Assembly (NCBI RefSeq): GCF_024400215.1 | Contig: NZ_CP053748.1 | Span: 310,001 to 374,000 of the forward strand | DNA from: Massilia sp. erpn | GTDB taxonomy: Bacteria > Pseudomonadota > Gammaproteobacteria > Burkholderiales > Burkholderiaceae_D | Direction of reading: 5' to 3' | DNA: 64,000 bases | Shown here: positions 835 to 15,664 of the stretch, piece after piece | Layout: every line of letters starts with the position of its first letter | Position numbering within the stretch: the stretch's first letter is position 1 | Notes under the pieces: model-generated | Told to the model about the DNA's origin: nothing | The model's input: only the letters and a program-made list of their open reading frames with translations | The model's database searches: none | Position numbers and translations under genes: made by a program

Positions 835-1799
835 GGCGCCACCTTACCCAGTTCGCGCCCATACACGCCGGCCGCCACGCCCGGCAACGAGCTGCAGCGC
901 GGGTCGGCGCCCGTCGTCGGCTGGCCGCAAGGCTTGTCGCGGTCCAGCGACCAGTAATGCAGGCCCGCCAGCTTCATATCGCGTACGGCGCGCGCCACGG
1001 TGCGCGCATCGCTTTGGGTAAAAACATTTTCCGCCACATCATTCACGCCGATCATCGGCGTCACCTCGATCTGCTCCAGCGGCACCTTGTATTTCATATG
1101 CACGTTCAGCACCGCCTGAATGGCGGAGGAACCCATATCGCAGCGCTGGCCGCGCACCGCGCACACCTTGCTGCCGGCCGGGCCGTAATTCATCACCATC
1201 AGGTTCAGCACATAGTCGCGCAGGCCGCTGCGGCGGATCGCCGCCAGCACCGCCTCGCCGGTGGAGTTCAGGCTGCGCCGGCTGCCATCGGTGGCCGCGT
1301 GCGTGGCCACGGTAAAGCTGAAGCGCAGTTGCGGGCGTTTGCCTTGAGCCTTGACCAGACGCGCCAGCAGGCTGTCGATCTGGGCCGGAGTTTGCGCCGC
1401 TTCAATGTCGAAGTCAAAGCCCAGCAGGTGCGCCGAGTCGTAGCGGGCGATGAATTTTTCCATGCCCTCGTCGCTGGAGCAGGTGAATATGCCGCCCTGG
1501 CCTCCGGTCGATACGATATAGCCGATGCCGGCCGCCACGAACTGCGGCACCTTGGCCGCCGCTACCGTCTGCCCGGGCTGTCCGCCCCAGGTCTCGGCGC
1601 CGCATTCGCCGACGGCAAAGGCCCAGCTCAGCGCTTTGGCATCCAGCCCTTGCAGGGCATTGATGCTGGCTGCCGCGCCATCCAGCGGCAGATGGCGGTA
1701 CGGACTATAGACAAATTGCGGCGCAGCCGCCGCAGGCGCGGATGCAGCCGCAAAGGCTGCCGCGGCGCCCAGCAGCGCCGCCATGACTTTGGTTCTCAT
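831..1799 (-). CDS. Secreted GH18-family chitinase-like glycosidase
   Basis: A 322-residue protein with a signal peptide (about residues 1-26, ending ASAPAAAA). The GH18 catalytic signature is seen as GFDFDIE at residues 127-133: Glu133 would be the catalytic acid and Asp129/Asp131 the assisting residues. The remaining barrel motifs (LMVMNYGPAG, then LHYWSLDRD near the C-terminus) fit bacterial chitinases with a compact catalytic domain and no separate chitin-binding module. A purine-rich Shine-Dalgarno sequence (GGAGAAGAA) precedes the ATG. It lies between the TonB receptor and the NagX-like gene, so periplasmic or extracellular hydrolysis of chitin oligosaccharides is the likely role. Activity on chitin itself is not shown by the sequence. 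Confidence 0.82.
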   Translation of the reverse strand: MRTKVMAALLGAAAAFAAASAPAAAAPQFVYSPYRHLPLDGAAASINALQGLDAKALSWAFAVGECGAETWGGQPGQTVAAAKVPQFVAAGIGYIVSTGGQGGIFTCSSDEGMEKFIARYDSAHLLGFDFDIEAAQTPAQIDSLLARLVKAQGKRPQLRFSFTVATHAATDGSRRSLNSTGEAVLAAIRRSGLRDYVLNLMVMNYGPAGSKVCAVRGQRCDMGSSAIQAVLNVHMKYKVPLEQIEVTPMIGVNDVAENVFTQSDARTVARAVRDMKLAGLHYWSLDRDKPCGQPTTGADPRCSSLPGVAAGVYGRELGKVAP

Positions 1800-1814
1800 T
1801 TCTTCTCCTGCATG

Positions 1815-1845
1815 AAAAAGGGCAGGACTCCGCGTGGTCCTGCCC
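1815..1845 (-). terminator. Rho-independent terminator or attenuator after the TonB receptor
   Basis: A 9-bp perfect stem (1820-1828 with 1837-1845, GGGCAGGAC/GTCCTGCCC) is followed on the minus strand by TTTTT. It lies between the TonB receptor stop and the GH18 start, so it would end most receptor transcripts and lower expression of the downstream enzyme genes. Confidence 0.7.
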
Positions 1846-1872
1846 CATACTGCGATTTACTGCGCTGACGCC

Positions 1873-4536
1873 TTACATCTTGCCCCGGATGCCGAAGAAG
1901 AGCTGCTTGCCGTTCTTGTAGAAGGCGCGCGGCTGGTCCTTGGTGGTGGCGTAGGACTTGAGCGTTGGATCGTTCAAGTCCTTGCCTTCCAGCGAGAGCG
2001 TCAGGTTCTCGGTGAGATTGTAGTTGAAGGCAGCCGACAGCGTGCCCACACCGTCCTGATAGATCGCGCTGTTGCGGTCCAGGCCATTCAGGAAGGCCGA
2101 GCGGTAGCTGTAGTTGATGCGGGCGCTGAACTTGTTGTTCTCGTAGAACACGCCGGCGTTGTAGGAGCGCTTGGAGGTGCCCACCATATTGCAGTCACCC
2201 AGATCGGCGCAGGCCGAATTCGGCGCCTTGCCGGTTTCCTTGCCGTCGGCATAGGTGTAGTTGGCGTTGACGCCGAAGCCATTGCCCAGATCCTGCACAT
2301 ACTGCAGTTCCACGCCGCGCACGCGGGCCTTGGTATTCATCGCGGAACTCATGGTGTAGGTCGTGACGCGGCCCACCGACTGGTTGAAAAATTCCGCCGT
2401 CGAGGCGCCAAAGGTCACATACGACGCCATGTGCATATTGAACACGTTCACGCCCAGCAGCGACTTGGGCATGAAGTACCACTCAATGCCGGCATCCACA
2501 TTGTTCGACAGGATGGGCGTCAGCTTGGGATTGCCGCCGTTGGCCGAGAAGGTCAGGTCGTTCAGGCTGAGCGAGCCGAGGGCGCCGATATCGGGGCGCG
2601 ACAGCGTGCGGCTGGCTGCGCCGCGCAGCACCACGTCCTGCGACAGGTCGGTGCGCAGGTTCAGGCTGGGCAGGAAGTTGTTATAGCTGCGCGAGGTGTA
2701 CTCCGGCGCCCAGCGATCGTTGGGCGAAGCGTTGGCCACATCGATCTGGGTGCGCACGAAGCGCACGCCGAGATTGCCCTGCACCGGACCGAAACTCAGG
2801 TCGCCCATCACATAACCGGCCGAGGCTTTTTCGCGGATCTGGAATTCGCTTTGGTAGGCATGGGTGTCGAAGCTGACGTACTTGTCGCCCCAGGCTTTCA
2901 TTGACTCGCTGGTAAAGGTCCAGCCCTTGTTCAGCAGATTGGGCAGCGGGCTGTCCGGGAAATTGGTCAAGCCGGTAGGCCGGTTGGCGGCCAAGCCGCC
3001 GGCCGGCGCCACGGTACCCGACAGCCAGATCAGGTCGCGCTCATGCTTGGCGTGGCGCAGGCCGAAATGCAGGGTCGGCACAATCTCCCACGGCGTCTTG
3101 TACTCGCCATCGACCTGGCCATAGCTTTCCTTGTCCTTGGCCTTGGTGTCCGAAGCCCAGCCGCTGAAGAAGTTGGCGCCGGTGCGCGGCGTGAAGCTGC
3201 CGGCATTCGGCACGACGACCGTGGCCGGCTGATCCAGGCCATAGGTGGTGATGCTGGTGCCGGAATAGGCCAGCCAGGCTTCATAGCCATAGTCGCGCGC
3301 ATAGCCGGTGCCGCGCGTGGTGCCGATCTGGCCCTTGAATTTCAGGTGCTCGTTGGCGCGCCATTGCCAGTCCAGATTGAGGAACTTGGAATCGCTGTAA
3401 GAGCCGGGACGGGCAATGATGTCCTGCAACGAAGAACCCATATCGCTGCAGTTGGCGACCGGGCAGGCGGCCGGGAATGCGAGCGCCGTGATGGTGTCGC
3501 CCTTGATGGTCCAGGAAGAAGGCTTGATGCCGCCGGTGCCGGCCAGGTTGGCGTTGTTCGACAGCGGCTGGCTGGCGTCCATCATGAAGTTGGCGTTGAT
3601 ATTGTCCGCATCCAGGCGGGTATAAAAGCCGCTGACATCGAAACTGAAATCGGGGCTGACCTTGAACTGCACGTCCAGCATGCCGCCCTTGCGCTCGCGC
3701 TTCTGCTCGAACAAGGCGGTACCGGTCAGCACCGACAGCCATTTGCCGTTCACCTCGGGATTGGACTTGACCCACTCCGGCGCCATGGTGCTGTCCACCT
3801 TGGCCCAGGACAGGAATTCCTGGCCGAGGCGGCGCAGGCTGCGCTTCTCGTCGAACAGCTGCACCAGCACGCCCATATTGCCGGCCTCGTTCTTCCAGTT
3901 GGCCAGGGCGCTGAACTGCGCATCGGTTTTCTTCGGCCCTTCGCTGTACACGCCTTCCACGGAACCCATCAGAGTCCAGGGCTTCTTGAAGCTGAGCGGC
4001 TTGCGCGTTTCGATGTTCACATTGCCGGCCGCGCCGCCCTCGATCAGATTGGCCTGCGCGCTTTTATGCACCGTGACGCGGCCGATCAATTCGGAAGGGA
4101 ACATCGAGTAGCTGACCGAGCGGCCGCCATTGGTGATGTTCGAGATATACCAGTCGCCGCTGGACACGGTATGCCCATTCAGCGTGGTCAGGGTCAGGTT
4201 GGACGGCGTGCCTTTCAGGCTGACGCGGTCATTCTCGCCGAAGCCGCCTTCGCTGCCGCCGGCCGTCGCCACCGACACGCCCGGCACGCGCTGCAGGGAA
4301 TCGGCCACGCTCTTATCCGGCATCTTGCCCACGTCTTCGGCGGTGATCACTTCCACCAGCGACTCGGCATTACGTTTCTGGTTCAACGACTGGGCCAGCG
4401 CGGCACGCACGCCGGTCACGGTGACGACGGCCGACTCATCGACTTTGGAACTGGCTGGCGGGGTTTGCGCCGCCGCACCACTGGCGGCGGTCAGGATGGC
4501 GACCGCGGTGGCGATCGGGGTCAGATTGCGCTTCAT
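1873..4536 (-). CDS. TonB-dependent outer-membrane receptor (proteobacterial carbohydrate type)
   Basis: An 887-residue outer-membrane receptor. The start is set at MKRNLTPI because a strong GGAGGAGA ribosome site lies just upstream; a longer in-frame extension to 4620 lacks such a site. A signal peptide ends near AAAQ. The plug domain follows, with the family motif ITAEDVGKMPDKSVADSL and RVPGV, then a long beta-barrel with many aromatic-rich strands, ending LFFGIRGKM. This architecture is the large Xanthomonas/Caulobacter-type TonB receptor group, often devoted to oligosaccharide uptake. With GH18 and NagX-like genes downstream and a divergent GntR regulator upstream, chito-oligosaccharide uptake is the best inference. 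No TonB box could be assigned with confidence. Confidence 0.9.
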   Translation of the reverse strand: MKRNLTPIATAVAILTAASGAAAQTPPASSKVDESAVVTVTGVRAALAQSLNQKRNAESLVEVITAEDVGKMPDKSVADSLQRVPGVSVATAGGSEGGFGENDRVSLKGTPSNLTLTTLNGHTVSSGDWYISNITNGGRSVSYSMFPSELIGRVTVHKSAQANLIEGGAAGNVNIETRKPLSFKKPWTLMGSVEGVYSEGPKKTDAQFSALANWKNEAGNMGVLVQLFDEKRSLRRLGQEFLSWAKVDSTMAPEWVKSNPEVNGKWLSVLTGTALFEQKRERKGGMLDVQFKVSPDFSFDVSGFYTRLDADNINANFMMDASQPLSNNANLAGTGGIKPSSWTIKGDTITALAFPAACPVANCSDMGSSLQDIIARPGSYSDSKFLNLDWQWRANEHLKFKGQIGTTRGTGYARDYGYEAWLAYSGTSITTYGLDQPATVVVPNAGSFTPRTGANFFSGWASDTKAKDKESYGQVDGEYKTPWEIVPTLHFGLRHAKHERDLIWLSGTVAPAGGLAANRPTGLTNFPDSPLPNLLNKGWTFTSESMKAWGDKYVSFDTHAYQSEFQIREKASAGYVMGDLSFGPVQGNLGVRFVRTQIDVANASPNDRWAPEYTSRSYNNFLPSLNLRTDLSQDVVLRGAASRTLSRPDIGALGSLSLNDLTFSANGGNPKLTPILSNNVDAGIEWYFMPKSLLGVNVFNMHMASYVTFGASTAEFFNQSVGRVTTYTMSSAMNTKARVRGVELQYVQDLGNGFGVNANYTYADGKETGKAPNSACADLGDCNMVGTSKRSYNAGVFYENNKFSARINYSYRSAFLNGLDRNSAIYQDGVGTLSAAFNYNLTENLTLSLEGKDLNDPTLKSYATTKDQPRAFYKNGKQLFFGIRGKM

Positions 4537-4594
4537 GTCTCCTCCTAAGCTTTGCTTTTTTGTGTGGAATTGCATAAAACCAATTGCACGCCAA

Positions 4595-4626
4595 TATACC
4601 CCTATCGCATACCAAATCATTACCAG
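4595..4626 (-). promoter_or_regulatory. Possible operator half-sites before the TonB receptor
   Basis: Three similar short elements lie in the same orientation on the plus strand: TATACC (4595-4600), ATACCA (4609-4614) and TTACCA (4620-4625). They sit about 60-90 bases upstream of the receptor start, in an AT-rich gap. The same TGGTA core occurs in the gntR promoter at 4756-4768, so a shared regulator is possible. This is pattern-based only. Confidence 0.35.
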
Positions 4627-4737
4627 TCATTAGATTTTTTTCAAACGTTGCACAAAAAACACATGCCGCGCTATCAACACTTGGTAAGCGTCAGAGGGAG
4701 GATGCGGTGTTGCAGCCACGCACAGTAGGCTGATGGC

Positions 4738-4768
4738 TTGTGGCATGGTCTTTTTTTGGTATTATCAA
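4738..4768 (+). promoter_or_regulatory. gntR promoter with overlapping near-palindrome
   Basis: A sigma70-like pair TTGTGG (4738-4743) and TATTAT (4760-4765) with a 16-base spacer lies upstream of the GntR gene. The -10 box is embedded in the near-palindrome TTGGTATTATCAA (4756-4768), which would suit autoregulation by a dimeric GntR protein. Confidence 0.45.
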
Positions 4769-4835
4769 AAGACGTTGTTTGACAAGAATGGGGCGCGCAA
4801 GCACGCGCTCCGCACGAGACAAGAAAGAAAGTGGT

Positions 4836-5576
4836 ATGACATCACTTGCAGAAATCATGGAGACCATGGGGCAAACCAGCAGCCTGCCCCTGTACCAGCT
4901 ATTACAGCGCGCCCTGCGCGAAGCCATCGACAAACGCATCTTCGGCCCCGATGAAGCCCTGCCCGCCGAGCGCCAGCTGGCGAGCGAACTGTCGATCTCG
5001 CGCATCACGGTGCGCAAGGCCATCGACGGCCTGGTGGACGAGGGTCTGCTGGTGCGCCGGCCCGGCTCCGGCAATTTCATCAACACCCGCATCGAAAAGA
5101 ACTTCGCCAAACTGACCTCGTTTTCCGAGGACATGCGCGCGCGCGGCCGTACCCCGCGCAGCGTGTGGCTGAAGCGCTCGGAAGGCACGGTCACGCCGGA
5201 AGAAGCGCTGCGGCTGCGGCTCAGTCCCGGTGCCCCGGTGTACCGCTTCAACCGCATCCGCTTTGCCGACGATGTGCCGATGTGCCTGGAGTACGCGACC
5301 ATTGTCGCCACCGCCCTGCCCGCACTGGACGCGGTCGATGTCTCGATGTATGAAGCGCTGGAGAAGGCCGGCAACCGGCCGGTGCGCGCCCTGCAACGCC
5401 TCTCGGCCCTGCTGCTGAACGCGGAACAGGCGGCGCTGCTGCAGGCACAGCAGGGCGATGCGGGACTGGCGGTGGAGCGTCTGGGCTTTTTGCGCGATGG
5501 CCGCGCGGTGGAATTTTGCCGCTCGATCTTCCGCGGCGATATGTACGATTTTGTGGCAGAACTCAGCACGCCCTGA
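4836..5576 (+). CDS. GntR/HutC-family regulator with UTRA domain
   Basis: A 246-residue transcription regulator. A winged helix-turn-helix fills about residues 15-85, with the typical stretch LPAERQLASELSISRITVRK and a wing reading RRPGSGNFI. A UTRA ligand-binding domain follows (from about residue 95, LTSFSEDMRARGRTP). The HutC group binds sugar phosphates or amino sugar phosphates (for example NagR/DasR) among other ligands. It is divergent from the TonB receptor, so it probably controls the chitin/GlcNAc locus. The start at 4836 is the first ATG that keeps the full fold; an alternative ATG lies at 4857. The ligand is inferred from context only. Confidence 0.85.
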   Translation: MTSLAEIMETMGQTSSLPLYQLLQRALREAIDKRIFGPDEALPAERQLASELSISRITVRKAIDGLVDEGLLVRRPGSGNFINTRIEKNFAKLTSFSEDMRARGRTPRSVWLKRSEGTVTPEEALRLRLSPGAPVYRFNRIRFADDVPMCLEYATIVATALPALDAVDVSMYEALEKAGNRPVRALQRLSALLLNAEQAALLQAQQGDAGLAVERLGFLRDGRAVEFCRSIFRGDMYDFVAELSTP

Positions 5577-5592
5577 GTTCAGCCTTCCTTCC

Positions 5593-5838
5593 CTACAGTA
5601 GCTCCGCCGGCGCGGCCTCCTCCTCCGCGCCTTCGCTCTCTTCCCACTCCAGGATATCGCCCGGCTGGCAAGCCAGGCGCTCGCAGATCTTCTCCAGCGT
5701 GACAAAGCGTATGCCCTTGACCTTGCCGGATTTGAGCAATGAGAGGTTTTGTTCGGTGATACCTACATAAGCCGCCAGTTCCTTGGACTTGATCTTACGT
5801 TTCGCCAGCATGACATCGAGGTTGACAATAATGGGCAT
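5593..5838 (-). CDS. Small Cro/CI-type HTH regulator
   Basis: An 81-residue protein that is almost entirely a helix-turn-helix domain (LAAYVGITEQNLSLLKSGK, then FVTLEKICERLACQPGDIL), with a short acidic tail (EWEESEGAEEEAA). This is the YozG-like group that is commonly encoded directly after a DUF2975 membrane protein. The start codon overlaps the stop of the DUF2975 gene by one base (TGATG), so the two are co-translated. Such pairs are thought to act as a membrane protein plus its regulator, but their signal is unknown. Confidence 0.85.
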   Translation of the reverse strand: MPIIVNLDVMLAKRKIKSKELAAYVGITEQNLSLLKSGKVKGIRFVTLEKICERLACQPGDILEWEESEGAEEEAAPAELL

Positions 5839-6410
5839 CAGACGAACCCCTTGTTTTCTTCCTCAAGGCGATGGCCTTCGTGCATGATGGCAGTCAGGAC
5901 GTAGAACAACGCGCACACAAGAACAAGCAACAATTCATTTGAGCTGAAGCTGAAGAGAACTTGCAATATCGGAGTCTTCACCATCGCATTGATGGCAAGG
6001 GCGCGCAGAGGCTTCTCAAGATTGCTCAACACCGTATAGAGGAGAAGCGCCCCGGAAAACGCCTGCATGGCGGCGATGGTACGCAAGGAAAAAATCATAC
6101 CGTCTTTTACGGATGCCAAAATACTATTGAACTGAATAACGGCGTAAAACAGGACACCAAGGGCTAGCACCCCTAGTCCTATGCCCACCAAACGCTGAGC
6201 AAAACTCAAACGAAGCAACTCATCGAAGGTGAGGCCGTCCGGATAGAAAAACATACGCATATAAAACACATACTGACTGTCGACACCTCCCCAACACAAA
6301 CAGAAATACAGTATCTGCAATACAACAAATGCAACAAGAGCAGCTTGCAGGCCACTGCACAGATGCCTCACGGCAGGCTGCCCGCTTCTCAAAATATAAG
6401 AATTAATCAT
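5838..6410 (-). CDS. DUF2975 family membrane protein
   Basis: A 190-residue membrane protein with four predicted hydrophobic segments (near residues 20-45, 75-100, 115-140 and 155-180), the usual layout of DUF2975. The C-terminus is short and charged (HEGHRLEEENKGFV). It is the first gene of a two-gene unit with the small HTH protein downstream (TGATG overlap). The start is placed at the ATG at 6410; no clear Shine-Dalgarno site was seen, and an in-frame TTG lies two codons upstream. Function is unknown. Its base composition is more AT-rich than the neighbouring housekeeping genes. Confidence 0.75.
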   Translation of the reverse strand: MINSYILRSGQPAVRHLCSGLQAALVAFVVLQILYFCLCWGGVDSQYVFYMRMFFYPDGLTFDELLRLSFAQRLVGIGLGVLALGVLFYAVIQFNSILASVKDGMIFSLRTIAAMQAFSGALLLYTVLSNLEKPLRALAINAMVKTPILQVLFSFSSNELLLVLVCALFYVLTAIMHEGHRLEEENKGFV

Positions 6411-6434
6411 CGTCAAACAATAATTTTTTATGTC

Positions 6435-6463
6435 TTTACAATAAATTATGACTGTAATACACT
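6435..6463 (+). promoter_or_regulatory. Predicted sigma70 promoter of the peptide operon
   Basis: TTTACA (6435-6440), a 17-base spacer, then TACACT (6458-6463), in a markedly AT-rich gap upstream of the small peptide gene. This would give a leader of roughly 110 bases before the peptide start. Confidence 0.5.
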
Positions 6464-6527
6464 TTATTCTAACTGATTCGGAAAGCCCTGCAAGGCAGCC
6501 TGATGAGGCAGCGCAAAGTTCAGCGCG

Positions 6528-6543
6528 TTACCGCTCGCGGTAA
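6528..6543 (+). promoter_or_regulatory. Perfect palindrome in the leader of the peptide operon
   Basis: TTACCGC and GCGGTAA (6528-6534, 6537-6543) form a 7-bp perfect inverted repeat with a 2-base centre. It lies between the predicted promoter and the peptide start. It could be an operator for a dimeric regulator; as RNA the loop would be too tight for the full stem. Confidence 0.5.
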
Positions 6544-6582
6544 GAAAGTGTAAGTTGGTGTGAATTACTTTTGGAGTTAGAC

Positions 6583-6750
6583 ATGCAAACCGCAACCAGC
6601 ACTACAAATCAGCAAATAGTTAATGAAGAGTCAAACGACCCTTTCCTCATTGAGGAATTGGAAGCACGCTTTGAGATGGAGACAGTTCCAACCTCCTCAT
6701 TCTCATTGCAAATTTGTGGCTGCGACACGCGTGGGCCGTCAACACCATAG
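6583..6750 (+). CDS. Putative 55-residue precursor peptide (RiPP-like)
   Basis: A short reading frame with a well placed Shine-Dalgarno site (TTGGAG, 7 bases before ATG). It encodes 55 residues: a polar, Gln/Asn/Thr-rich N-terminus, an acidic middle with the helix-like stretch FLIEELEARFEME, and a C-terminal part TSSFSLQICGCDTRGPSTP containing the only two cysteines as CGC. It has no signal peptide or membrane segment. Size, an acidic leader-like half and a small Cys/Ser/Thr-rich tail are the classic layout of a ribosomal peptide precursor. It is followed 25 bases later by a membrane protease and two acyltransferase-like genes on the same strand. No known precursor family is recognised, so the assignment is inference from architecture and context. 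Confidence 0.65.
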   Translation: MQTATSTTNQQIVNEESNDPFLIEELEARFEMETVPTSSFSLQICGCDTRGPSTP

Positions 6751-6775
6751 GTAATCCACAAAGGCAATTTATAGT

Positions 6776-8029
6776 TTGTTCCCGTCCAACCCCAGATCCA
6801 TGCAGCCTACCCCCCTCCTCAAAGACGGCATCCGGATTTCACCCTATGATGGGACAACCTTGCACGCCGCTCCTCGCTTTCTTCTGGAATGCGAGGGGCG
6901 GTATTTTTTGATTTCAGTCGGGACGCGTGCACTGATACTCGCGCTGCTCAGACAACCATCAAGCGACAGCGAACTGGAACAAGCTTTTGTGGCCGAAGGT
7001 GGACCGCCCATGCCCGCCGCCAAGCTGCATGAACTGGGCGCGCAAACTTTGCCACCGGCGCTGCTACACGACGCCCCCAGTACCAAACGCATACGCCCCT
7101 TCTTTATCAGCATGGAACTGCTGTCAGCAGCGCTGGCCGCGCAGCTTGGACAGCGCTTGGCATGGCTGTTTCGGCCGCACTTGGCTGCCGTACTGCTATC
7201 GGCCTTCGCCGTCCTGCATTTCCTTACCCTGCCCGGCGCCATGCAAGCAGTACATGGCAGTTGGCAGGACATGGACACCGTTCCGCTGCTGATCGGTTTA
7301 CTCGTGCTAAGCGGGCTGCTGCATGAACTGGGCCATATCACAGCCTGCCGTTACTTCCGCTGTCCGCACGGCGGCATCGGGATTGGCCTCTATCTGATTT
7401 TTCCCGCCTGGTTTGCCGACGTAAGCCATGCCTGGCGCCTGACACGCCACCAACGCGCCGCGGTCGATCTGGGCGGCGTGTATTTTCAAGCCATCCTGCT
7501 GATCGGGTTGGATGCTTGGGCGCTTGCCAGCGGCGACAGCTTCGTCCTGCAGCTGATCTGGGTGATCACGTTCACCATGCTGTTTACGCTCAACCCCATG
7601 TTTAAATTCGACGGCTACTGGCTGCTGTCCGACCTGAGCGGTCTGCATAATCTGCATCAACAGATGCGTCGTCATACTGTCAGCCTGCTGCTGCGCGTAC
7701 TCGGACGGCCAAGCGGCCAAGCCAGTCGCCCCATGCAGATATGGATCTTGCATGTCTATACCTTGCTGGGCGGCGCCTACTTCCTGTACTTCGGCCATTT
7801 TTTGCTATGCGAGCTGCTACGGCAGTTCACCTCTCTGCCGCTGCAACTGCAGCAGATCGTTCAGGAGTTTGGCAGCGAGGCTGAATTCCTGTCTGCGGCG
7901 CTGCATCTGATGCGTGACTTGCTCTGGCCTGCCATGCTCGTATTCACCAGCATTTTTTTGATTACAAGAGTTCTGCGCACCCTCAGCGATCTTGTCGCCG
8001 CGATCCGAATCCAACAGCAGAGTTTATAG
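6776..8029 (+). CDS. M50 family membrane metalloprotease with PqqD-like N-terminal region
   Basis: A 417-residue polytopic membrane protein. The site-2 protease zinc motif HELGH is at residues 183-187, and the third-ligand motif NPMFKFDGYW is at 273-282. About residues 20-75 (SPYDGTTLHAAPRFLLECEG onwards, then ALLRQPSSDSELEQ) resemble a PqqD/RRE-type peptide-recognition fold, as in M50 proteins of peptide-maturation loci; this part is a pattern judgement. Several hydrophobic helices flank the active site. The start is taken as TTG at 6776 because AAAGG (6760-6764) is well spaced; an ATG at 6800 has no ribosome site. It lies 25 bases after the peptide gene, suggesting it cleaves that peptide or exports the product. 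Confidence 0.8.
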   Translation: MFPSNPRSMQPTPLLKDGIRISPYDGTTLHAAPRFLLECEGRYFLISVGTRALILALLRQPSSDSELEQAFVAEGGPPMPAAKLHELGAQTLPPALLHDAPSTKRIRPFFISMELLSAALAAQLGQRLAWLFRPHLAAVLLSAFAVLHFLTLPGAMQAVHGSWQDMDTVPLLIGLLVLSGLLHELGHITACRYFRCPHGGIGIGLYLIFPAWFADVSHAWRLTRHQRAAVDLGGVYFQAILLIGLDAWALASGDSFVLQLIWVITFTMLFTLNPMFKFDGYWLLSDLSGLHNLHQQMRRHTVSLLLRVLGRPSGQASRPMQIWILHVYTLLGGAYFLYFGHFLLCELLRQFTSLPLQLQQIVQEFGSEAEFLSAALHLMRDLLWPAMLVFTSIFLITRVLRTLSDLVAAIRIQQQSL

Positions 8030-8054
8030 AACGCTCCCGGAAAGGAAATTCACG

Positions 8055-9014
8055 ATGTCCTTGCGAAAGCTACTGCTCGCTCCTTTGGAAAAACTGCTAT
8101 CTATTTCTGATCCCGCCGAACAGATTCGCATCCAACGGGAAACCAGTATGGTGAAATATGCGCAAATGGGCTTGCGCCATTTCCTGAGCCTGCCGCAGGA
8201 GCATGCGTTTGCCACGGCGCAAGCCGGTCTGTGCTCCTATAAACGCCTGCTGCAACGCGGCACCTTGCCAGTGGATACGCCACAACTGCCACCTGTGGCG
8301 AGCGAAGTCACGCAGCGGCTACTGCACGGCTCTTGCATGCTGGCCCTCCCCTTCAATCTAAGCACCTTGCAGTTATTACGCACTCTCCCGGCCGACCTGG
8401 CACGGCGCTCGATCGTGGTTGAAAGCCAAGCCGTAGTGAACGCAATCACCGCCATGAGTTCACCCAACAAGGCGCTGCAAACGATGGCGCCGCGTGACGT
8501 TATCAAACGCGTCAAAGCGGCGCGCACGGATGGCAGTGCGCCCGTACTGTATATCAGCTTCCCGGAATTGCATACGCGCGGCAATGGCACCACCGCATCT
8601 TTGAATTTCCTCGGCAAGTCCTGTACTTTCTCCTTGCTGGAGCCACTACTGTATTGCTTTGGCCTGCAAACCATGCTGACGCTGGCGCCAAATCCTGATC
8701 GGGCATCAAGCCTTCAGCTGCAGCAGTTTGAAGGCGTTGAAACCGACGGCCCCAACGCGGGCAAAGCACTTGCCCTGTGCATGGGTTGGCTAAGCGGGAA
8801 CTTGCAGAATATGGCGCAGGCCTTCCCGGAACTGACACTGAGTTGGCAGCACCTGTACCGGGCCAGCGGGCAGTTTCGCGCGCTTGAACGCAATGACAAG
8901 CTGAAGCAGCTTGAAGCTTACTTCGACGCCTGGCGGCAAGCCGGCCCGGAGTTGGATGCCCAAACTTATGCCTTCGTCAAAAGCCGTTTGACGGAAATGC
9001 GCAATTCGCATTAA
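8055..9014 (+). CDS. Degenerate LpxL-like acyltransferase homologue, function unknown
   Basis: A 319-residue protein of no recognised family. The start is the ATG after GGAAAGGAAA. Its order of segments parallels the LpxL-like protein encoded just downstream: a strand-turn LALPFNLSTLQLL sits where that protein has its HX4 motif, and VLYISFPELHTRGNGTTASL followed by NFLGKSCTF aligns in pattern with VLTIMPDSLGVTGHTSYVPF there. The catalytic His is replaced (Pro99/Phe100 region), so it is probably a non-catalytic or differently acting paralogue, perhaps a partner subunit. The homology claim rests on eye alignment and needs a structure or profile comparison. Confidence 0.6.
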   Translation: MSLRKLLLAPLEKLLSISDPAEQIRIQRETSMVKYAQMGLRHFLSLPQEHAFATAQAGLCSYKRLLQRGTLPVDTPQLPPVASEVTQRLLHGSCMLALPFNLSTLQLLRTLPADLARRSIVVESQAVVNAITAMSSPNKALQTMAPRDVIKRVKAARTDGSAPVLYISFPELHTRGNGTTASLNFLGKSCTFSLLEPLLYCFGLQTMLTLAPNPDRASSLQLQQFEGVETDGPNAGKALALCMGWLSGNLQNMAQAFPELTLSWQHLYRASGQFRALERNDKLKQLEAYFDAWRQAGPELDAQTYAFVKSRLTEMRNSH

Positions 9015-9026
9015 GCAGGAGCACGC

Positions 9027-10049
9027 ATGCAGTACACCGGTTCGGAACTAGTTTTCCTGGCGCGCCAGTACCTGCGCCAAGCCACGCCACAATTTACCTA
9101 CCGCAAAGGAGGCGCCGCGCAGCGTTTTTTCAGCCAATCCATACGCCGCCTCTTTCCGCATATACCTGCAGCAGACTGTCATGAGCTATGCCGACGCCAT
9201 TACTTGTCGATGCACCAGCGGCAGCAACTGCGCCAGCATTTAGGCCGGCTCGATGCATCAGGTATCGAGCGCTTCCTGCATCGGCACGTGAGGGTAGAGG
9301 GCCAGGATTATCTCGACCTGGTACGCAATAGCGAGCGGCCCGTCGTTCTGTTTACGCCTCATTACGGAAATTTCACGATTGTCGCCCTCAAGCTGATCCA
9401 GGCAATCGGGCGCATTAAGACCGTCAACAGCTTCCACAATCCGCTTCCGGCCAGCCATCCCATGGGCGATGTGGAAAGCCTGTTCGGCCGCCTGGGCTAT
9501 GGCTATACTCCGATTCCGAATGATGACAGCGGCGCGGCACTGAAAGCCATCCGCGCATTGCGGCGCGGCGAAGTGCTGACGATTATGCCGGACAGCCTGG
9601 GCGTGACCGGCCATACCAGCTATGTGCCCTTCTTTGGCCATCTGGTGCCGGCCATGGCTGGCGCTTCCTTGTTCGCACTGAAGAGTAATGCGCTCGTCAT
9701 CGGCATTTACGGCTGTCCCGAAGAAGGCCTCCAAACCACCTTGCGCCTGAGCGCACCGCTGGAAATCGAGCGCAACGGAGATCTGGACCTCGATATGCGC
9801 ACTTTGGCGAGCGCCATGTTCCGCGATATGGAGCGCCAGATCCGGCGCTCTCCCGAGCACTGGTATCTGCTGCCTGACATTGGCCGGGCGCTGGCCGAAA
9901 CGCTGCGCCTGGCGCCGCCGGCAGATCTGGGCTGGCTGGGGCAACTGCGCCAGGCCGCGCCCCAGTTCCAGCAAGCCATTCCGGAGCTGGAACGGACGCT
10001 GGCCGAGCTGGCGCAGCGTCAAATGGTGGGCGGCGGCGGCCTGTTCTAA
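9027..10049 (+). CDS. LpxL/HtrB-like lysophospholipid acyltransferase family protein
   Basis: A 340-residue protein with an AGGAG site before its ATG. It shows the LpxL/HtrB-type acyltransferase layout: an N-terminal region rich in basic residues, the catalytic block PVVLFTPHYGNFTIVALK, then IMPDSLGVTGHTSYVPFFG. His112 is present, but the usual acidic residue of HX4(D/E) is Thr117 (HYGNFT), which is unusual. There is no clear N-terminal membrane anchor. It is the last gene of the peptide-M50 operon and only 12 bases after the preceding gene. It could attach an acyl chain to the peptide or to a lipid carrier; lipid A acylation is less likely given the context. Confidence 0.75.
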   Translation: MQYTGSELVFLARQYLRQATPQFTYRKGGAAQRFFSQSIRRLFPHIPAADCHELCRRHYLSMHQRQQLRQHLGRLDASGIERFLHRHVRVEGQDYLDLVRNSERPVVLFTPHYGNFTIVALKLIQAIGRIKTVNSFHNPLPASHPMGDVESLFGRLGYGYTPIPNDDSGAALKAIRALRRGEVLTIMPDSLGVTGHTSYVPFFGHLVPAMAGASLFALKSNALVIGIYGCPEEGLQTTLRLSAPLEIERNGDLDLDMRTLASAMFRDMERQIRRSPEHWYLLPDIGRALAETLRLAPPADLGWLGQLRQAAPQFQQAIPELERTLAELAQRQMVGGGGLF

Positions 10050-10087
10050 TCCGCCGGAAAGCAACGCCGCCTGCCCACCAAACCTCT

Positions 10088-12853
10088 TCAGCGTGCGCTG
10101 CCTGTCGCGCCACCGGCCGCCGCCTTGGGCGCCGCTTCCACCTTGGCCTTGTCGCCGGCCGTGACCACGCTCAGTTTGCCCAGGTCGAGCGCCTTGCGGA
10201 AGGCTGCGCTCACCTGCTCCGCCGTCAGCGCTTTCAGCTTGGCCTCATGCTGGGCGCTGCGTTCGAAGGTCTGACCCAGATACAGGTAGCGGGTCCAGGC
10301 GGCGGCGATCACTTCGTCTTTCGAGCGGCTTTGCAGGCGCTGCTGCAGCAGGCCGGACTTGGCGCCCGCCACTTCGGCCGCCGTAAAACCTTCCTTGGCC
10401 GCGCGCTCCAGCTCTTCTCGGATGGCCGTTTCCAGCTTTTTCAGATTCTGCGGCGCGGCGATCGCCATCACCGAGAAGCCACCCGCGCGGTCCTTCTCGC
10501 CCGCCGCCAGCGAGGAGCCGCCGCCGTAGGACAGGCCGTCCTTCTGGCGGATGCGATCCATCAGGCGCGACTTCATGCCGCCGTCGCCGAAGATGTAGTT
10601 CGCCAGCTCCAGCGCCGGATAGTCGGCATCGTCCTTGTTCAGATCCAGCTCGATATGGGCCGTGTAGAAACCGTTCTCCTTGTCCGGCGTGTCGATGGAT
10701 TTATGCAGCGGCGCCTTGCCTGAATTGCTGTTGGGGATGCGCGCATAAGCGGCTTTGCTCAGCCATCCGCCCAGCTCTTCCTCCACCACCTTGACGGCAG
10801 CGGCCTTGTCGAAATCGCCGACGATGGCCAGCTCGCCATGCGAGGCGCCGTAGAAATCGCGGTAATACGCTTTCACGTCCTCCAGTTTGAGCGCCTTCAC
10901 GCCGGCCAGTTGCTCGTCGATGCTCATCGCGGCGCGCGGGTCGCCTTTCGGATAGTGGTCGAGGTATTCTTCCAGCGCCTGCGTGGCCATTGTCTGCGGG
11001 TCGTTGCGCGCCGCCTCGATGGAAACGATCCACTGCTGGCGCATCTGTTCGAATTCAGCTTCCGGGAAGCTTGGATTTTTCAGCACATGCATCGCCAGAC
11101 GCAGCGCCTGCTCCAGGTTTGGGCGCGTGGTGTCGAACTGGTAGGGGCCGCTGCCCGACATTTTCAGGCGCGAGAAGGCGTCGGCCAATTGCGCGCGGCT
11201 GTACTGGCTGCTGCCGCGCATCAGCATCTGCGCGGTGGCCGTGGCCACCAGCGATTTGCCGAACATATTCTTCTCGTCGCCCCAATGCAGACGCAGCTCC
11301 ACCGACACGGCTTCGCCGCGGTTCTTCTTCGGCAGCAGCGCCAGTTTCAGGCCGCCCAGGGTTTTCAGCTCGGTGCGCGCCATGATATTGGCCTGGCTCG
11401 GGTCGAAGACTTCCGAAGTCAGCACGCTGTCCTTGCCCTTGAAATCCTTCATCACCTCGGCCACGGACGGCGCGGCCGGAATCTCGGCGCGCTGCGGCGC
11501 GTCTTCCGGCAGGAACAGGCCCACGGTGCGGTTGTCGCGCTTCAGATAGCGGCCGGCGGCCTCGCTCACCTGCTGCGCCGTGACTTTCTCCAGATCGTCG
11601 CGGCCCTTGAACAGCAGGCGCCAGTCACCCAGGGCGATCTGCTCTGACAGCGCCACGCCGACCTGCTGCGGGTCGTTGAGCGCCTTCTCGATGCCGTTGC
11701 TGACGTTGCGGCGCACGCGCTCCATCTCCTCCGCTGTCGGCGGCTGCGCGGCGAAGCTCTCGATGGCCGCCACCAGCTGCTCGCGCACCGGCTCCACCGG
11801 CTCGCCCGCCTTCACCAGGGCCGCCAGCACCTGCAGGCCGGGCGCATAGCCGTTCAGGCCAAAGCTGTAGATCTGCGCCGCCTTGCCGCTTTCCACCAGG
11901 GCCTTGTGCAAACGGCCATTGGGCGTATCGCCCAGGATGTCGGACATGAAGCTGAGGGCATCGGCATCGGCATGCAGGGCCGCCGGAATCTTGTAGGCCA
12001 CCGCCACGATCTGCATATCGCCCTTGCGGCGCACAGTGAAGCTGCGCTCGCCGTCCTGGGTCGGTTCCACCGTCCAGAAAGGCGGCAACTGGCGCTTCGG
12101 CTTGGGGATCACGCCAAAGGACTTGCTGATCCAGGCCAGGGTCTGGGACGGATCGAACTTGCCGGCCACCAGCAGCACGGCGTTATCCGGCTGATACCAG
12201 GTGCGGTAGAAAGCCTGCAGGTTCTCGATGCGCACATTTTCGATATCGCTGCGGTTGCCGATGGTGGAACGGCCGTAGCTGTGCCAGTCGTAGGCCACGC
12301 TCTGCATGCGCTTGACCAGCACGCCGAAGGGATCGTTCTCGCCACTCTCGTACTCGTTGCGCACCACGGTCATTTCCGAGTCCAGATCCTTGCGCGAGAT
12401 GAAGGACTTGGTCATGCGCTCGGCTTCCATATCCAGCGCCCATTTCAGGTTCTCGGGACTGGCCTGGAACACCTCGTAGTAGTTGGTGCGGTCGAGCGAG
12501 GTGGTGCCGTTGAAGTCCATGCCGCGTTCGGCGAACTGCTGCGGGATATTGCGGTTGCGTGGCGCGCCCTTGAACATCAGGTGTTCCAGCAGGTGGGCCA
12601 TGCCGGTCTCGCCATAGTTCTCATGGCGCGAGCCGACCAGATACGTGACGTTGACGGTAACGGTGGGTTTCGACGCGTCCGGGAACAGCAGCACTTTCAG
12701 TCCGTTCGGCAAACGGTACTCGGTGATGCCCTCGGCCAACGGGCCTTTGACGACGCCATGCGGCAGGGTTTGGGAATAGGCCGGAGGCAGGAAGGCCAGG
12801 CCGGCCAGCAAGACGGTGGCGCCGAAGCGCGGCTTGAAGGAAATCATGGACAT
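10088..12853 (-). CDS. M16 family zinc peptidase (two-domain, periplasmic)
   Basis: A 921-residue pitrilysin-type peptidase with a signal peptide (ending AYSQ, about residue 28). The inverted zinc motif HXXEH is visible as HLLEHLMFKG near residue 85, with the downstream Glu ligand in the MTVVRNEYESGEN stretch. A second, inactive M16 half begins near residue 480 and contains MAQTELKTL-like and GGMKSRLMDRIRQ segments. This is the usual length for the fused N- and C-domain periplasmic proteases. It is convergent with the peptide operon and probably monocistronic. A role in periplasmic peptide degradation is inferred from family membership. Confidence 0.92.
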   Translation of the reverse strand: MSMISFKPRFGATVLLAGLAFLPPAYSQTLPHGVVKGPLAEGITEYRLPNGLKVLLFPDASKPTVTVNVTYLVGSRHENYGETGMAHLLEHLMFKGAPRNRNIPQQFAERGMDFNGTTSLDRTNYYEVFQASPENLKWALDMEAERMTKSFISRKDLDSEMTVVRNEYESGENDPFGVLVKRMQSVAYDWHSYGRSTIGNRSDIENVRIENLQAFYRTWYQPDNAVLLVAGKFDPSQTLAWISKSFGVIPKPKRQLPPFWTVEPTQDGERSFTVRRKGDMQIVAVAYKIPAALHADADALSFMSDILGDTPNGRLHKALVESGKAAQIYSFGLNGYAPGLQVLAALVKAGEPVEPVREQLVAAIESFAAQPPTAEEMERVRRNVSNGIEKALNDPQQVGVALSEQIALGDWRLLFKGRDDLEKVTAQQVSEAAGRYLKRDNRTVGLFLPEDAPQRAEIPAAPSVAEVMKDFKGKDSVLTSEVFDPSQANIMARTELKTLGGLKLALLPKKNRGEAVSVELRLHWGDEKNMFGKSLVATATAQMLMRGSSQYSRAQLADAFSRLKMSGSGPYQFDTTRPNLEQALRLAMHVLKNPSFPEAEFEQMRQQWIVSIEAARNDPQTMATQALEEYLDHYPKGDPRAAMSIDEQLAGVKALKLEDVKAYYRDFYGASHGELAIVGDFDKAAAVKVVEEELGGWLSKAAYARIPNSNSGKAPLHKSIDTPDKENGFYTAHIELDLNKDDADYPALELANYIFGDGGMKSRLMDRIRQKDGLSYGGGSSLAAGEKDRAGGFSVMAIAAPQNLKKLETAIREELERAAKEGFTAAEVAGAKSGLLQQRLQSRSKDEVIAAAWTRYLYLGQTFERSAQHEAKLKALTAEQVSAAFRKALDLGKLSVVTAGDKAKVEAAPKAAAGGATGSAR

Positions 12854-12930
12854 TCGGGAAAGGCAAAACCCTATCCTACTATGGAACCGGCGCGGTTCCC
12901 GAATGTTATTGACGGCGCTTAAGGCTCGCT

Positions 12931-13260
12931 TCAGGCACTGGCCGAGGCGCGCGTCTCTTCTTCCGGCGTCGGCACCAGGCAGGCGTCAACCACCTGCAGA
13001 TTATTATCGCGCGCAAAAGCGACCACGAAGTGGTAAGCCATCGGCTCCAGCTCGCGCAGGTCATTACTGACCACGACGGCCTTGGTGCCGTTCAGCAGCA
13101 CGGGGCGGACAAGGGGAGAAAACTGCAAGTGGGCGTGGCGCCCGCCGCTGCCTTCCGGTCGGAAGCAGGACATCACCCCGCACAAGCGCTCGGCCCAATC
13201 GCTCGGACGGAACTGCTTGCCATCGGCGGTAACGCCAAGAATAAAGAACTCGCTGGCCAT
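12931..13260 (-). CDS. DUF3579 domain protein
   Basis: A 109-residue cytoplasmic protein matching the DUF3579 pattern common in Betaproteobacteria: FFILGVTADGKQFRPSDWAE at the N-terminus, then RLCGVMSCFRPEG and LVVSND-like motifs (KAVVVSNDLRELEPMAYHFV). The C-terminal 15 residues are low complexity. It stands alone between the M16 protease and the CobD-like gene. Function is unknown. The 190 bases on its upstream side (13261-13450) hold no gene that I can support. Confidence 0.85.
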   Translation of the reverse strand: MASEFFILGVTADGKQFRPSDWAERLCGVMSCFRPEGSGGRHAHLQFSPLVRPVLLNGTKAVVVSNDLRELEPMAYHFVVAFARDNNLQVVDACLVPTPEEETRASASA

Positions 13261-13450
13261 AGGCGGCTTGTAACTAGGGTACGTGGAAGAAGCTTAGGTA
13301 TTATATCTTATAGAAGACCTAAACAGGTAAGTACCTGATTTTCCACCGAAAAAACGCCAACCTCCCTGCCCCGATGCCGGAATGGGGCAGGAAACTCGCG
13401 TCAAAGCCGTATTGTATGCCGCTTCGGCGGCGAAAAGGTTGTTCGTCCGC

Positions 13451-14410
13451 TTAACTGAGCCAGACCGCGCCGGACAGCAACAGCAGCAGCAGCATCCACA
13501 GCAGCAGCGCGCGCCAGACCAGGCCCACGGTACTTTGCAGGGCGCGCACACTCGGCTCCTCACCGGGCAGCGTGTCGATTTCCACCTCGCCGATATCGAC
13601 GGCGGCGGCATCGGAGGGCACGACCTTGGCCGCGTTCTCCAGCGGCGAGCCGAGACGCACGCCCATGGCGCCGCCGCCGGCCGACAGGATGATGCCGATG
13701 GCTTCATCCTTCCAGCGGTGGGCGAAATTGCGCCAGGCGTAGATGGCGTCTTCGAAGTTGCCGACCACGGCGAAGGCCACGGCGGTCAGGCGCGCCGGAA
13801 TCCAGTCGATCCAATAGAAGGCGCGCGCGGCGAATTCGCCGAAGGCTTCATTGCGCATATGTTCCGGCTCGTTCCAGGCGCGCGCCAGGTATTCGGACAC
13901 GCGGTACATCACCGCGCCCGAAGGGCCGAGCGGCATCAGGAACCAGAAGAACACGCCGAACACATTGCGGTGCGAGGTGATCAGGGACTTTTCCACGGCG
14001 ACGCGGGCGATCTCGCTCACTTCCATGCCCACGGTATCCTGCTTGGTCCATTCGGCCAGCAGCGAGCGCGCGGCGGCTTCGTCGCCCGCGTTCAGGGCCA
14101 GCTGGATCGAAGTGAAGTAATGGCTGTAATGGCGGAAGCCCAGGGTCAGGTACACGATGGCCACGTTCCAGGCAAAGGCGGCCAGATACAGCTTGTAGTA
14201 CAGCAGAACCCAGTAAATCAGCGCGGTGGGCAGCATCAGCGCGCCCATCATGAGGAACCAGCCCATCTGGCCATGGCGCTCATGGCCGGCGTTGAACCAG
14301 GTTTCCATGCGCACCGCCAGGCTCTTGATTTCGGCATAGACGGGATTATCTGCGCGCAGGGGCTTGAGTTGCTCCAACAACAACGCGCAAAGAATGGAAA
14401 GAAAAGTCAT
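13451..14410 (-). CDS. CobD/CbiB-family (AmpE-like) inner-membrane protein
   Basis: A 319-residue membrane protein starting MTFLSILCALLLEQLKPLR, preceded by AAAGGA. Hydrophobic helices occur near residues 50-100, 170-200 and at the C-terminus (LLWMLLLLLLSGAVWLS). Motifs typical of the betaproteobacterial CobD/CbiB family are seen: EVSEIARVAVEKSLITSHRN, GPSGAVMYRVSEYL, FYWIDWIPARLTA. Elsewhere CobD/CbiB makes adenosylcobinamide, but no other cobalamin genes are nearby and this lineage often keeps the protein alone. An AmpE-like or other membrane role is therefore possible. Confidence 0.82.
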   Translation of the reverse strand: MTFLSILCALLLEQLKPLRADNPVYAEIKSLAVRMETWFNAGHERHGQMGWFLMMGALMLPTALIYWVLLYYKLYLAAFAWNVAIVYLTLGFRHYSHYFTSIQLALNAGDEAAARSLLAEWTKQDTVGMEVSEIARVAVEKSLITSHRNVFGVFFWFLMPLGPSGAVMYRVSEYLARAWNEPEHMRNEAFGEFAARAFYWIDWIPARLTAVAFAVVGNFEDAIYAWRNFAHRWKDEAIGIILSAGGGAMGVRLGSPLENAAKVVPSDAAAVDIGEVEIDTLPGEEPSVRALQSTVGLVWRALLLWMLLLLLLSGAVWLS

Positions 14411-14456
14411 CAAACGTCCTTTGTGATAGCAATGCCGCAATGCCCGCTACGATAGC

Positions 14457-15113
14457 CTATGCGCGCAAGAAATGAAACAGATTGCGCAGCATGCCGGCCG
14501 TCGCGCCCCAGATGAAGCGTTCCTCGTAAGGCATGGCGTAGAAGCTGCGGCGGCCGCTGGGCAGCTCGGCCGACAGGCGCCGGTGGTTCAAGCCGTCCAT
14601 CAGGAAGGCCAGCGGCACTTCGAAAATCTCGGCCACTTCGCCAGGATCGGCGCGCAGCTCGAACGGCGGCAGCACCAGGCCCACCACCGGCGTCACGCGG
14701 TAGCCGGTGCCGGTCAGGTAATCAGGCAGGTGGCCGATCACCTCGATATGCCGGCGCGCCAGGCCGATTTCCTCTTCCGTTTCGCGCAGCGCCGTTTCGA
14801 TGGGAGAGCCGTCGCCCGGCTCGGCGCGCCCGCCGGGAAAAGCGATCTGGCCGGCATGGTCGTTCAAATGGGCGGTGCGCTGGGTCAGCAGCAGGGACAG
14901 ACCTTCCTCGCGCAGCACCAGCGGCACCAGCACGGCGGCGGCGGTCGGATGCGGGAAGCGCGCCGATTCGTCGGGCAGCTCCGGCGTCCACGCGGGCGGC
15001 TGGGCGAAGCGCTGGCGCAGCCATGCGGGCGCCAGGCGCTCCAGCAGGACGGCCGCTTCGCCGGCGATGGAATCGACCGGCCATTGACTGGGATCGACGA
15101 GTGGCTTACTCAT
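14457..15113 (-). CDS. CoA-type Nudix hydrolase (coenzyme A pyrophosphatase)
   Basis: A 218-residue Nudix hydrolase. The UPF0035/CoA signature LLTQRTAHLNDHAGQIAFPG precedes the Nudix box GGRAEPGDGSPIETALRETE followed by EEIG, giving the REXXEE core that binds the metal. This subgroup cleaves CoA and its derivatives to 4-phosphopantetheine and ADP. It lies just downstream of rplS on the same strand, but a terminator separates them, so it is probably transcribed separately or by readthrough. Confidence 0.9.
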   Translation of the reverse strand: MSKPLVDPSQWPVDSIAGEAAVLLERLAPAWLRQRFAQPPAWTPELPDESARFPHPTAAAVLVPLVLREEGLSLLLTQRTAHLNDHAGQIAFPGGRAEPGDGSPIETALRETEEEIGLARRHIEVIGHLPDYLTGTGYRVTPVVGLVLPPFELRADPGEVAEIFEVPLAFLMDGLNHRRLSAELPSGRRSFYAMPYEERFIWGATAGMLRNLFHFLRA

Positions 15114-15122
15114 GCTGACTCC

Positions 15123-15153
15123 AAAAGAAAAAGGGGTACCAGAGGCACCCCTT
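15123..15153 (-). terminator. Terminator after rplS
   Basis: A hairpin with arms AAGGGGT (15131-15137) and ACCCCTT (15147-15153). On the minus strand it runs into TTTTTCTTTT. It closes the rpsP-rimM-trmD-rplS operon. Confidence 0.75.
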
Positions 15154-15172
15154 CCATTCCGGCAAAACGCTA

Positions 15173-15556
15173 TTACGCGCTTGCTTTCGCTTCTGCGCGA
15201 CGGGTCGGCAGTTTTTCTTTGATACGTGCGGATTTGCCCGAACGCTCGCGCAGGTAGTACAGTTTAGCGCGACGTACGTCACCACGGCGTTTCACTTCGA
15301 TCGAAGCGATCAGCGGGGAGTACAGCTGGAAGGTACGCTCAACGCCTTCGCCGGACGAGATCTTACGAACGATGAAGTTCGAGTTCAGGCCACGGTTACG
15401 ACGTGCGATCACAACGCCTTCGTAAGCCTGGGCGCGCTTGCGGGTGCCTTCGACTACGTTCACGTTAACGACCACGGTGTCGCCAGGCGCGAACTCAGGG
15501 ATGTTCTTGCCCAGACGAGCGATTTCTTCTTGCTCGAGTTGTTGAATCAGATCCAT
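15173..15556 (-). CDS. rplS: 50S ribosomal protein L19
   Basis: A 127-residue protein starting [20 protein letters not shown], with a GGAG site upstream. It has the L19 core [20 protein letters not shown] and [11 protein letters not shown]. The C-terminus extends about a dozen residues beyond the E. coli protein (RRAEAKASA). L19 sits at the 30S-50S interface. It is the last gene of the rpsP-rimM-trmD-rplS operon; a 108-base gap separates it from trmD. Confidence 0.98.
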
Positions 15557-15664
15557 TTTATAGACTCCAATAACCATCTTGCTGGCACCACGGAGTGAAC
15601 CGGCCCAGTAGAGGATGGGGTTAAACACGCGGGCAGACATTGCCCGCACGGTACTACAACAGGT

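Follow-up and report, generated by a model that had tools for sequence, protein, structure and literature searches.

A probable RiPP-type cassette of Massilia that combines a daptide-related protease and leader with a pair of LPLAT-fold proteins

Epipeptides and daptides are two groups of ribosomally synthesized and post-translationally modified peptides (RiPPs) with a metalloprotease of the membrane-embedded type. The biosynthesis of epipeptides involves a radical SAM epimerase. Their M50 protease (EpeP/YydH) matures a small peptide (PMC10885120). In the daptide system of Microbacterium paraoxydans the protease MpaP is a site-2 protease with an N-terminal RiPP recognition element (RRE), the leader carries the motif ELExMEAP, and the leader residues L(-7) and M(-4) are needed for the oxidative decarboxylation step (PMC10036551). 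Lipidation of ribosomal peptides was termed very rare in a 2022 review, in which selidamides are described as products of GNAT-family enzymes acting on ornithine or Lys, and lipolanthines and goadvionins as hybrids with polyketides (PMC9505594). Here, a four-gene cassette of Massilia sp. erpn is described that is probably of the RiPP type, a sibling of the daptides in its protease and leader but different from them in its partner enzymes and core. It lies in a window of 64,000 nucleotides (positions 310,001 to 374,000 of contig NZ_CP053748.1), taken from a genome that consists of a single contig of 6.15 Mb and has Massilia and Pseudoduganella as its closest named kin; coordinates given without a locus number count from the first nucleotide of the window, and the prefixes L and G stand for related loci and genomes.

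In the open reading frames (ORFs) of the window, all four consecutive genes that the first-pass annotation had placed on one strand are present on the + strand: a precursor peptide of 55 amino acids (6583..6750; MQTATST...FLIEELEARFEMETV...ICGCDTRGPSTP), an M50 intramembrane metalloprotease of 409 amino acids (6800..8029), and two proteins of 319 (ORF3, 8055..9014) and 340 amino acids (ORF4, 9027..10049). The peptide gene starts with ATG, with GGAG at 6573-6576. The tight spacing of 25, 25 and 12 bases claimed for the unit holds for M50-ORF3 (25) and ORF3-ORF4 (12) but not for the first gap: the M50 gene probably starts at ATG 6800 rather than at TTG 6776, because the frame of L008 opens just one codon ahead of the equivalent ATG, and the peptide and M50 genes are therefore 49 bases apart. 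Across 14 loci, including the window and with starts picked by hand, the M50-ORF3 distance ranges from -14 to 25 bases and the ORF3-ORF4 distance from -4 to 19. A scan for promoters and terminators gave signals below shuffle level.

Is so short a frame a gene at all? Sequence comparison indicates that it is. Within a block of 13 residues (FLIEELEARFEME) the window, L008, L009 and L120 differ by synonymous changes only, the whole gene has a dN of 0.155 and a dS of 0.534 between the window and L009, and the GGAG ahead of the ATG is kept in three relatives. The precursors have the leader pattern [FY]xxExLExRxEM, often as EALEARFEMEAV/P, and then a short core, usually with CxC. In the window, the conserved leader block FLIEELEARFEMETV (residues 21-35, 6643..6687), a putative recognition motif that resembles ELExMEAP of the daptides, is followed by the proposed core (residues 36-55, 6688..6747), in which C45 and the invariant C47 are encoded at 6715-6723. 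Comparison of the small peptides, as suggested in the first-pass annotation, brought out this shared leader motif and core Cys in 24/24 aligned precursors, with E24, L26, R29, E31, M32 and C47 invariant throughout. Furthermore, a profile search of 5.8 billion proteins returned 310 precursor relatives (E up to 0.01). Among the 120 of these that were listed, a leader search pattern occurs in 118 and a slightly wider pattern fits all 120; CxC follows the leader motif in 108, some Cys is found there in 120/120, 106 cores have exactly two Cys, Trp stands shortly ahead of Cys in 89, and a median of 4 residues lies past the last Cys, all of them core counts biased upward because the search profile included the core. 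The C-termini vary (...GPSTP in the window; ...TIEN, ...KVTW and others in relatives), and none of 33 precursors matches a known precursor family of NCBIfam at E up to 1. A conserved leader and a more variable core beside a maturation enzyme, which are general marks of RiPPs, are thus found here. In 19 of the 120 listed relatives, mostly metagenomes, the longest contig is equally long for the precursor and a listed M50, as compared to a mean of 0.6 and a maximum of 3 in offset controls (n=100), an indirect sign that precursor and M50 genes are neighbours.

The protease has intact active-site motifs, HELGH (7322-7336) and NPMFKFDGYW (DGYW at 7610-7621). Its sequence supports a relationship to the leader proteases of daptides and epipeptides, with 85.4 bits against the NCBIfam model daptide_HExxH NF041824 (family cutoff 300) and 55.3 bits against the YydH/LiaK epipeptide model, which is below the family cutoff of 225. 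The N-terminal part is a proposed RRE, although Pfam recognised no PqqD family in the N-terminus of any of the 31 members scanned. Indirect support comes from a scan of six proteins, five of them M50: in the LPLAT-linked L031 and in G447 and L024 (no LPLAT found) the alignment to the daptide-protease profile begins near the start of the profile, which is not so in L016 and L074, nor in the protease of the window.

The likeness to daptides would lie in an intramembrane site-2 protease and a small precursor with a related leader motif (ELExMEAP versus ExLExRxEM), in which the conserved Leu and Met of the cassette stand three residues further apart. In contrast, the invariant C-terminal Thr reported for daptides is missing from the cassette precursors, and neither the unit nor eight further flanking ORFs (831-16411) yielded a recognisable oxidative decarboxylase, aminotransferase, methyltransferase or ABC transporter of the daptide type; instead, the cassette has two proteins of the lysophospholipid acyltransferase (LPLAT) fold and a CxC core. 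Extended to the two divergent neighbours of the unit, the Pfam scan likewise gave no enzyme of the MpaB, MpaC, MpaD or MpaM type, with the limits that MpaB could escape Pfam and that, within the window, the scan extended to these ORFs only. We know of no Pfam model for MpaB. Among the flanking ORFs are genes for a TonB-dependent receptor, a GntR-type regulator, an M16 peptidase and DUF3579, CobD/AmpE, NUDIX and TrmD-type proteins; Pfam recognised no RiPP enzyme or transporter among them. With epipeptides the cassette has in common an M50 protease that would mature a small peptide, but the precursor is unlike theirs and no radical SAM epimerase was recognised in the unit. A daptide or epipeptide cluster proper was rejected because of the precursor end, the enzymes and the model cutoffs. 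For the four genes together no published description was found in the open-licence literature, a search that could miss subscription papers; the earlier claim that no such system had been described stands to this extent, but not for the combination of RRE-bearing protease and ELExMEAP leader, which had already been published for daptides (PMC10036551).

ORF4 matches PF03279 (4.5e-17) and has the motif PHYGNFT, in which His112 (9360-9362) is followed by Thr117 (9375-9377) at the position of the acid. Its predicted model has the LPLAT fold, with LpxM and PatA as closest folds, and the original description of an LpxL-like protein with HYGNFT in place of HX4(D/E) is confirmed. LpxM acylates lipid A and PatA acylates mycobacterial phosphatidylinositol mannosides. 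ORF3 belongs to no Pfam family (a single chance-level match, 0.089), but its predicted model has the LPLAT fold as well. Its block LALPF, which aligns to TPHYG of ORF4 in a modest alignment (prob 34, E 4e-4), has no conserved His, in agreement with the first-pass term degenerate acyltransferase-like, and ORF3 is proposed to be a divergent LPLAT and catalytically dead partner of ORF4. Both models have the fold of LpxL, LpxM and PatA; the differences are that ORF4 has lost the acid of HX4(D/E), that the His of ORF3 is unrecognisable, and that the gene context is a precursor and an M50 protease. The His of ORF4 and N165, D189, F203 and G212 are invariant in alignment A3 (20 rows; L075, L081, L089 and L120 left out), which suggests that a pocket has been kept. 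Could ORF4 be a housekeeping LpxL, as had been feared? This is judged unlikely, as the two strongest PF03279 genes of the genome, with 215 and 125 bits, are located outside the window, at 1.387 Mb, and have HX4(D/E) intact (HLGCFE and HFVCLD). If ORF4 acylates the peptide, the product would resemble selidamides, lipolanthines and goadvionins in having a fatty acyl group on a ribosomal peptide; an LpxL-fold enzyme is not mentioned for them in the accessible part of the review (PMC9505594), and the acyltransferase among the daptide accessory genes is of a different family, PF00583 (PMC10036551).

How widespread is the combination? Public genomes searched with an M50 alignment yielded 391 relatives; the loci of the best 80 were fetched and are the source of the locus counts. 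An LPLAT model of ORF4, built from loci picked after a first BLAST look, matched strongly in 21/80 M50 loci; a weak 22nd match (L068, G859) was left out of this count, and others may have escaped where a contig end truncates the locus. Represented among the 21 loci are Massilia, Pseudoduganella, Duganella, Janthinobacterium, Colwellia, Thalassotalea, Shewanella and Pseudoalteromonas as well as metagenome-assembled genomes (MAGs) with the labels Burkholderiales, Lysobacteraceae, Eisenbacteria, Opitutia and plain 'bacterium'. ORF3 was recognised in 18 of them; the middle ORF of L075 and L081 is not recognisable (prob 0.5) and that of L074 is weak (prob 27). A precursor was found by the precursor model (E up to 0.01) in all 21 genomes, 18 of which had fed the model, with L015, L031 and L037 independent of it. 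In 20 of the 21 it lies in the M50 locus itself; in L015 it lies at the end of another contig, and the M50 contig also ends. Counting all genomes given to the model, 26/28 were positive (negative: G334 and G859), or 25/27 distinct genomes, since G001 and G843 are identical in positions and evidently one genome. Among 61 genomes the precursor was found in three, the window's own included, and in the two relatives it stands just upstream of M50. The peptide gene is thus kept beside the M50 and LPLAT genes in distant taxa, and the lack of conservation feared in the first-pass annotation was not found.

Moreover, natural fusions link M50 with ORF3 (one frame in Duganella guangzhouensis, L014) and with the LPLAT enzyme (one frame in G334, L089), whereas gene order differs in L031, L037 and L020. 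Distances between M50 proteins and between ORF4 proteins correlate with r 0.951 over 22 loci (L120, L017 and L037 left out), a value reached in 0/2000 permutations; this fits common inheritance but also reflects the relatedness of the species. Plasmid carriage was considered and rejected: in 72,556 plasmid records ORF4 had no match at 1e-5, and M50 had partial and distant matches in 17 records, none with 80% coverage. As a separate observation, three precursor-like ORFs stand ahead of one M50 in L074 (Lysobacteraceae MAG, 5115-5943).

What might the four proteins do together? On balance we favour a RiPP-type maturation cassette, sibling to that of the daptides, in which the LPLAT pair modifies the core and M50 removes the leader. 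The short precursor would be recognised via its leader, [FY]xxExLExRxEMEAV. ORF4, with ORF3 as dead partner of the same fold, would then modify the core, most likely by transfer of a fatty acyl group; the conserved Cys is the first guess for the acyl site, a new N-terminus or Thr/Ser the second. Cys would be a natural acceptor, as its thiol is easier to activate than the hydroxyl of a sugar, and this might explain why loss of the acid is tolerated. Finally, the membrane-anchored M50 would cut the leader, perhaps near MEAV/P, and a small lipopeptide might be released. Recognition and cleavage of the leader by M50 are suggested by homology. Apart from M50, the LPLAT pair are the only enzymes that recur in the unit, and acyl transfer is the simplest reading, but acylation, its site, the order of the steps, the cut site, the partnership of ORF3, export and the biological role are things that we only infer, and the odds of the mature product being a lipopeptide are roughly even. 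The sequence of leader cleavage and acyl transfer put forward in the first-pass annotation accordingly holds in part: the protease is kin to RiPP leader proteases and both partners have the LpxL/PatA fold, but acyl transfer, its site and its product are conjectural. A bolder version, tentative and in our view rather doubtful, is that of a new RiPP class, in which the LpxL-fold ORF4 with its His-less twin would S-acylate a peptide thiol from a carrier, making the product a membrane substrate for the RRE-bearing protease. No LPLAT with a peptide substrate is known to us, and ORF4 would then be the first. If LPLAT-fold enzymes do lipidate peptides, a superfamily known for lipid substrates would be opened to peptide chemistry, and the leader motif together with M50 and the LPLAT pair would offer a search handle for a family with ~310 precursor relatives. 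The cassette also shows a daptide-like module of protease and leader joined to unrelated enzymes, both in Proteobacteria and in MAGs that bear the labels Eisenbacteria and Opitutia.

Several findings weigh against this favoured reading. The essential L(-7) and M(-4) of the daptide leader (PMC10036551) are three residues apart, L26 and M32 of the cassette six. Comparison of M50 N-terminus profiles with nine PqqD proteins gave no significant RRE match (probability 2). In ORF4-type sequences the His of HX4(D/E) is present in 24/24 and the acid in 0/24, and ordinary LpxL catalysis may therefore not run; L075 and L081 also lack the G and F flanking the His. Of the two core Cys only the second is invariant in the alignment of 24 precursors, the first position being Ser/Thr ([ST]xC) in 10/120 listed precursors. 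Neither the unit nor the eight flanking ORFs contain a recognisable gene for export or immunity. The linkage has exceptions, too: G334, with its M50-LPLAT fusion, has no precursor according to the model, although a 62-aa Cys-containing ORF directly upstream of the fusion gene is a possible diverged precursor, and L017 (Acidobacteria MAG) has two precursors with the leader type of the cassette and M50 at 5510-7305, while the LPLAT model is blank in the 13-kb locus. The cassette is also sparse, as the precursor model found one match in 369 class-level genomes, the window's own, and two in 295 genomes of the Colwellia order, both among the known loci, and a full-length close M50 (E below 1e-112) occurs in 5/74 genomes of the genus; any M50 match occurs in 14/74, mostly partial and inside longer frames.

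Part of this evidence would suit an M50-matured, pheromone-like signal, with the LPLAT proteins as lipid or acyl-carrier scaffolds that do not acylate the peptide. The candidate sensor is a pair of genes on the - strand, divergent from the operon and overlapping each other by one base (5593-6416): a DUF2975-like membrane protein (5838..6416; Pfam 25.2 bits, cutoff 27) and an HTH_26 (Cro/C1-type) regulator (5593..5838). In L008-L014 and L120 homologues of both are neighbours of the cassette, and L016, L018 and L022 also have a homologue of the regulator, L016 having in addition a DUF2975 protein and one of the AraC type. Conservation alone suggests that the DUF2975-like protein is tied to the cassette; a sensor or immunity pair is possible. 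The missing acid of ORF4 and missing His of ORF3 would be expected of scaffolds. However, the invariant ORF4 residues in the 20 rows of A3 speak for a kept active site, and no regulator homologue was found in 10/21 LPLAT loci, e.g. L019 and L038, some of these being cut short. Overall, we consider a signal without acylation unlikely. Defence against phages was rejected, PADLOC giving no match for the four genes (E up to 0.01) and two weak matches to the HTH gene (4.6e-5 and 9e-4).

The remaining explanations are improbable. The first overlaps with the favoured reading and has the mature CxC peptide bind a metal, e.g. copper, with the LPLAT pair serving only to anchor it in the membrane; CxC in 108/120 listed precursors and a TonB-dependent receptor gene 2 kb off in the window, with a regulator gene in between, are consistent with this, but the unit has no recognisable metal transporter and there are just two Cys in most listed cores. 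There is equally little to recommend a pearlin-like use of the peptide as a carrier, on whose C-terminal part a small molecule is built and then released by M50. In its favour, products at the C-terminus are set free in pearlin pathways by TglG and TmoG, which are M50 proteases (PMC10885120), and the putative core of the cassette is short and lies at the C-terminus; but Pfam and NCBIfam scans recognised no peptide aminoacyl-tRNA ligase in the unit, the short tail past the last Cys argues against it, and the daptide and epipeptide models matched by M50 are those of leader proteases. An envelope-lipid operon, with lipid A or some other lipid as the substrate of ORF4, M50 in the role of a regulatory site-2 protease and the peptide in that of a regulator, would agree with LpxM and PatA as closest folds but hardly with a leader-core peptide family with a strictly conserved Cys, an HX4(D/E) lost in ORF4 but retained by the two strongest members of the family in the genome, and an M50 that matches RiPP proteases.

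A related arrangement occurs in the same genus in G447 (L168, 5308-9710), where a related M50 is accompanied by a protein of the arginase family that has an additional N-terminal region. About 2.5 kb further on lie two precursors with a leader like that of the cassette and the core SCSRCC (SIEELETRLEM...SCSRCC). The RiPP pathway of phaeornamide includes a peptide arginase (PMC9505594), and the G447 locus is possibly a separate RiPP cluster with Arg-to-Orn conversion; its combination of M50, arginase-family protein and precursors adds support for the RiPP frame.

Other genes recur around the cassettes of relatives. Upstream of the two precursors of L017 is an ORF that, judged by eye, is GTPase-like. 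In L011-L014 the cassette is followed by exported proteins that are related to one another, the one in L012 matching DUF2987 above cutoff; recurrent accessory exported/DUF2987 proteins are encoded at L012 9256-9972, L014 9146-9799 and L167 6682-7512; a DUF2987 protein also follows the M50-LPLAT fusion of G334. In Colwellia and Thalassotalea the cassette is followed by a small exported PDZ-like protein (L021 4739-5101, L016, L018 and L022; PDZ models just below cutoff), and in Shewanella and Pseudoalteromonas by an alpha/beta hydrolase (L019 4382-5422 and L038 8761-9840) with a start that by eye is lipoprotein-like.

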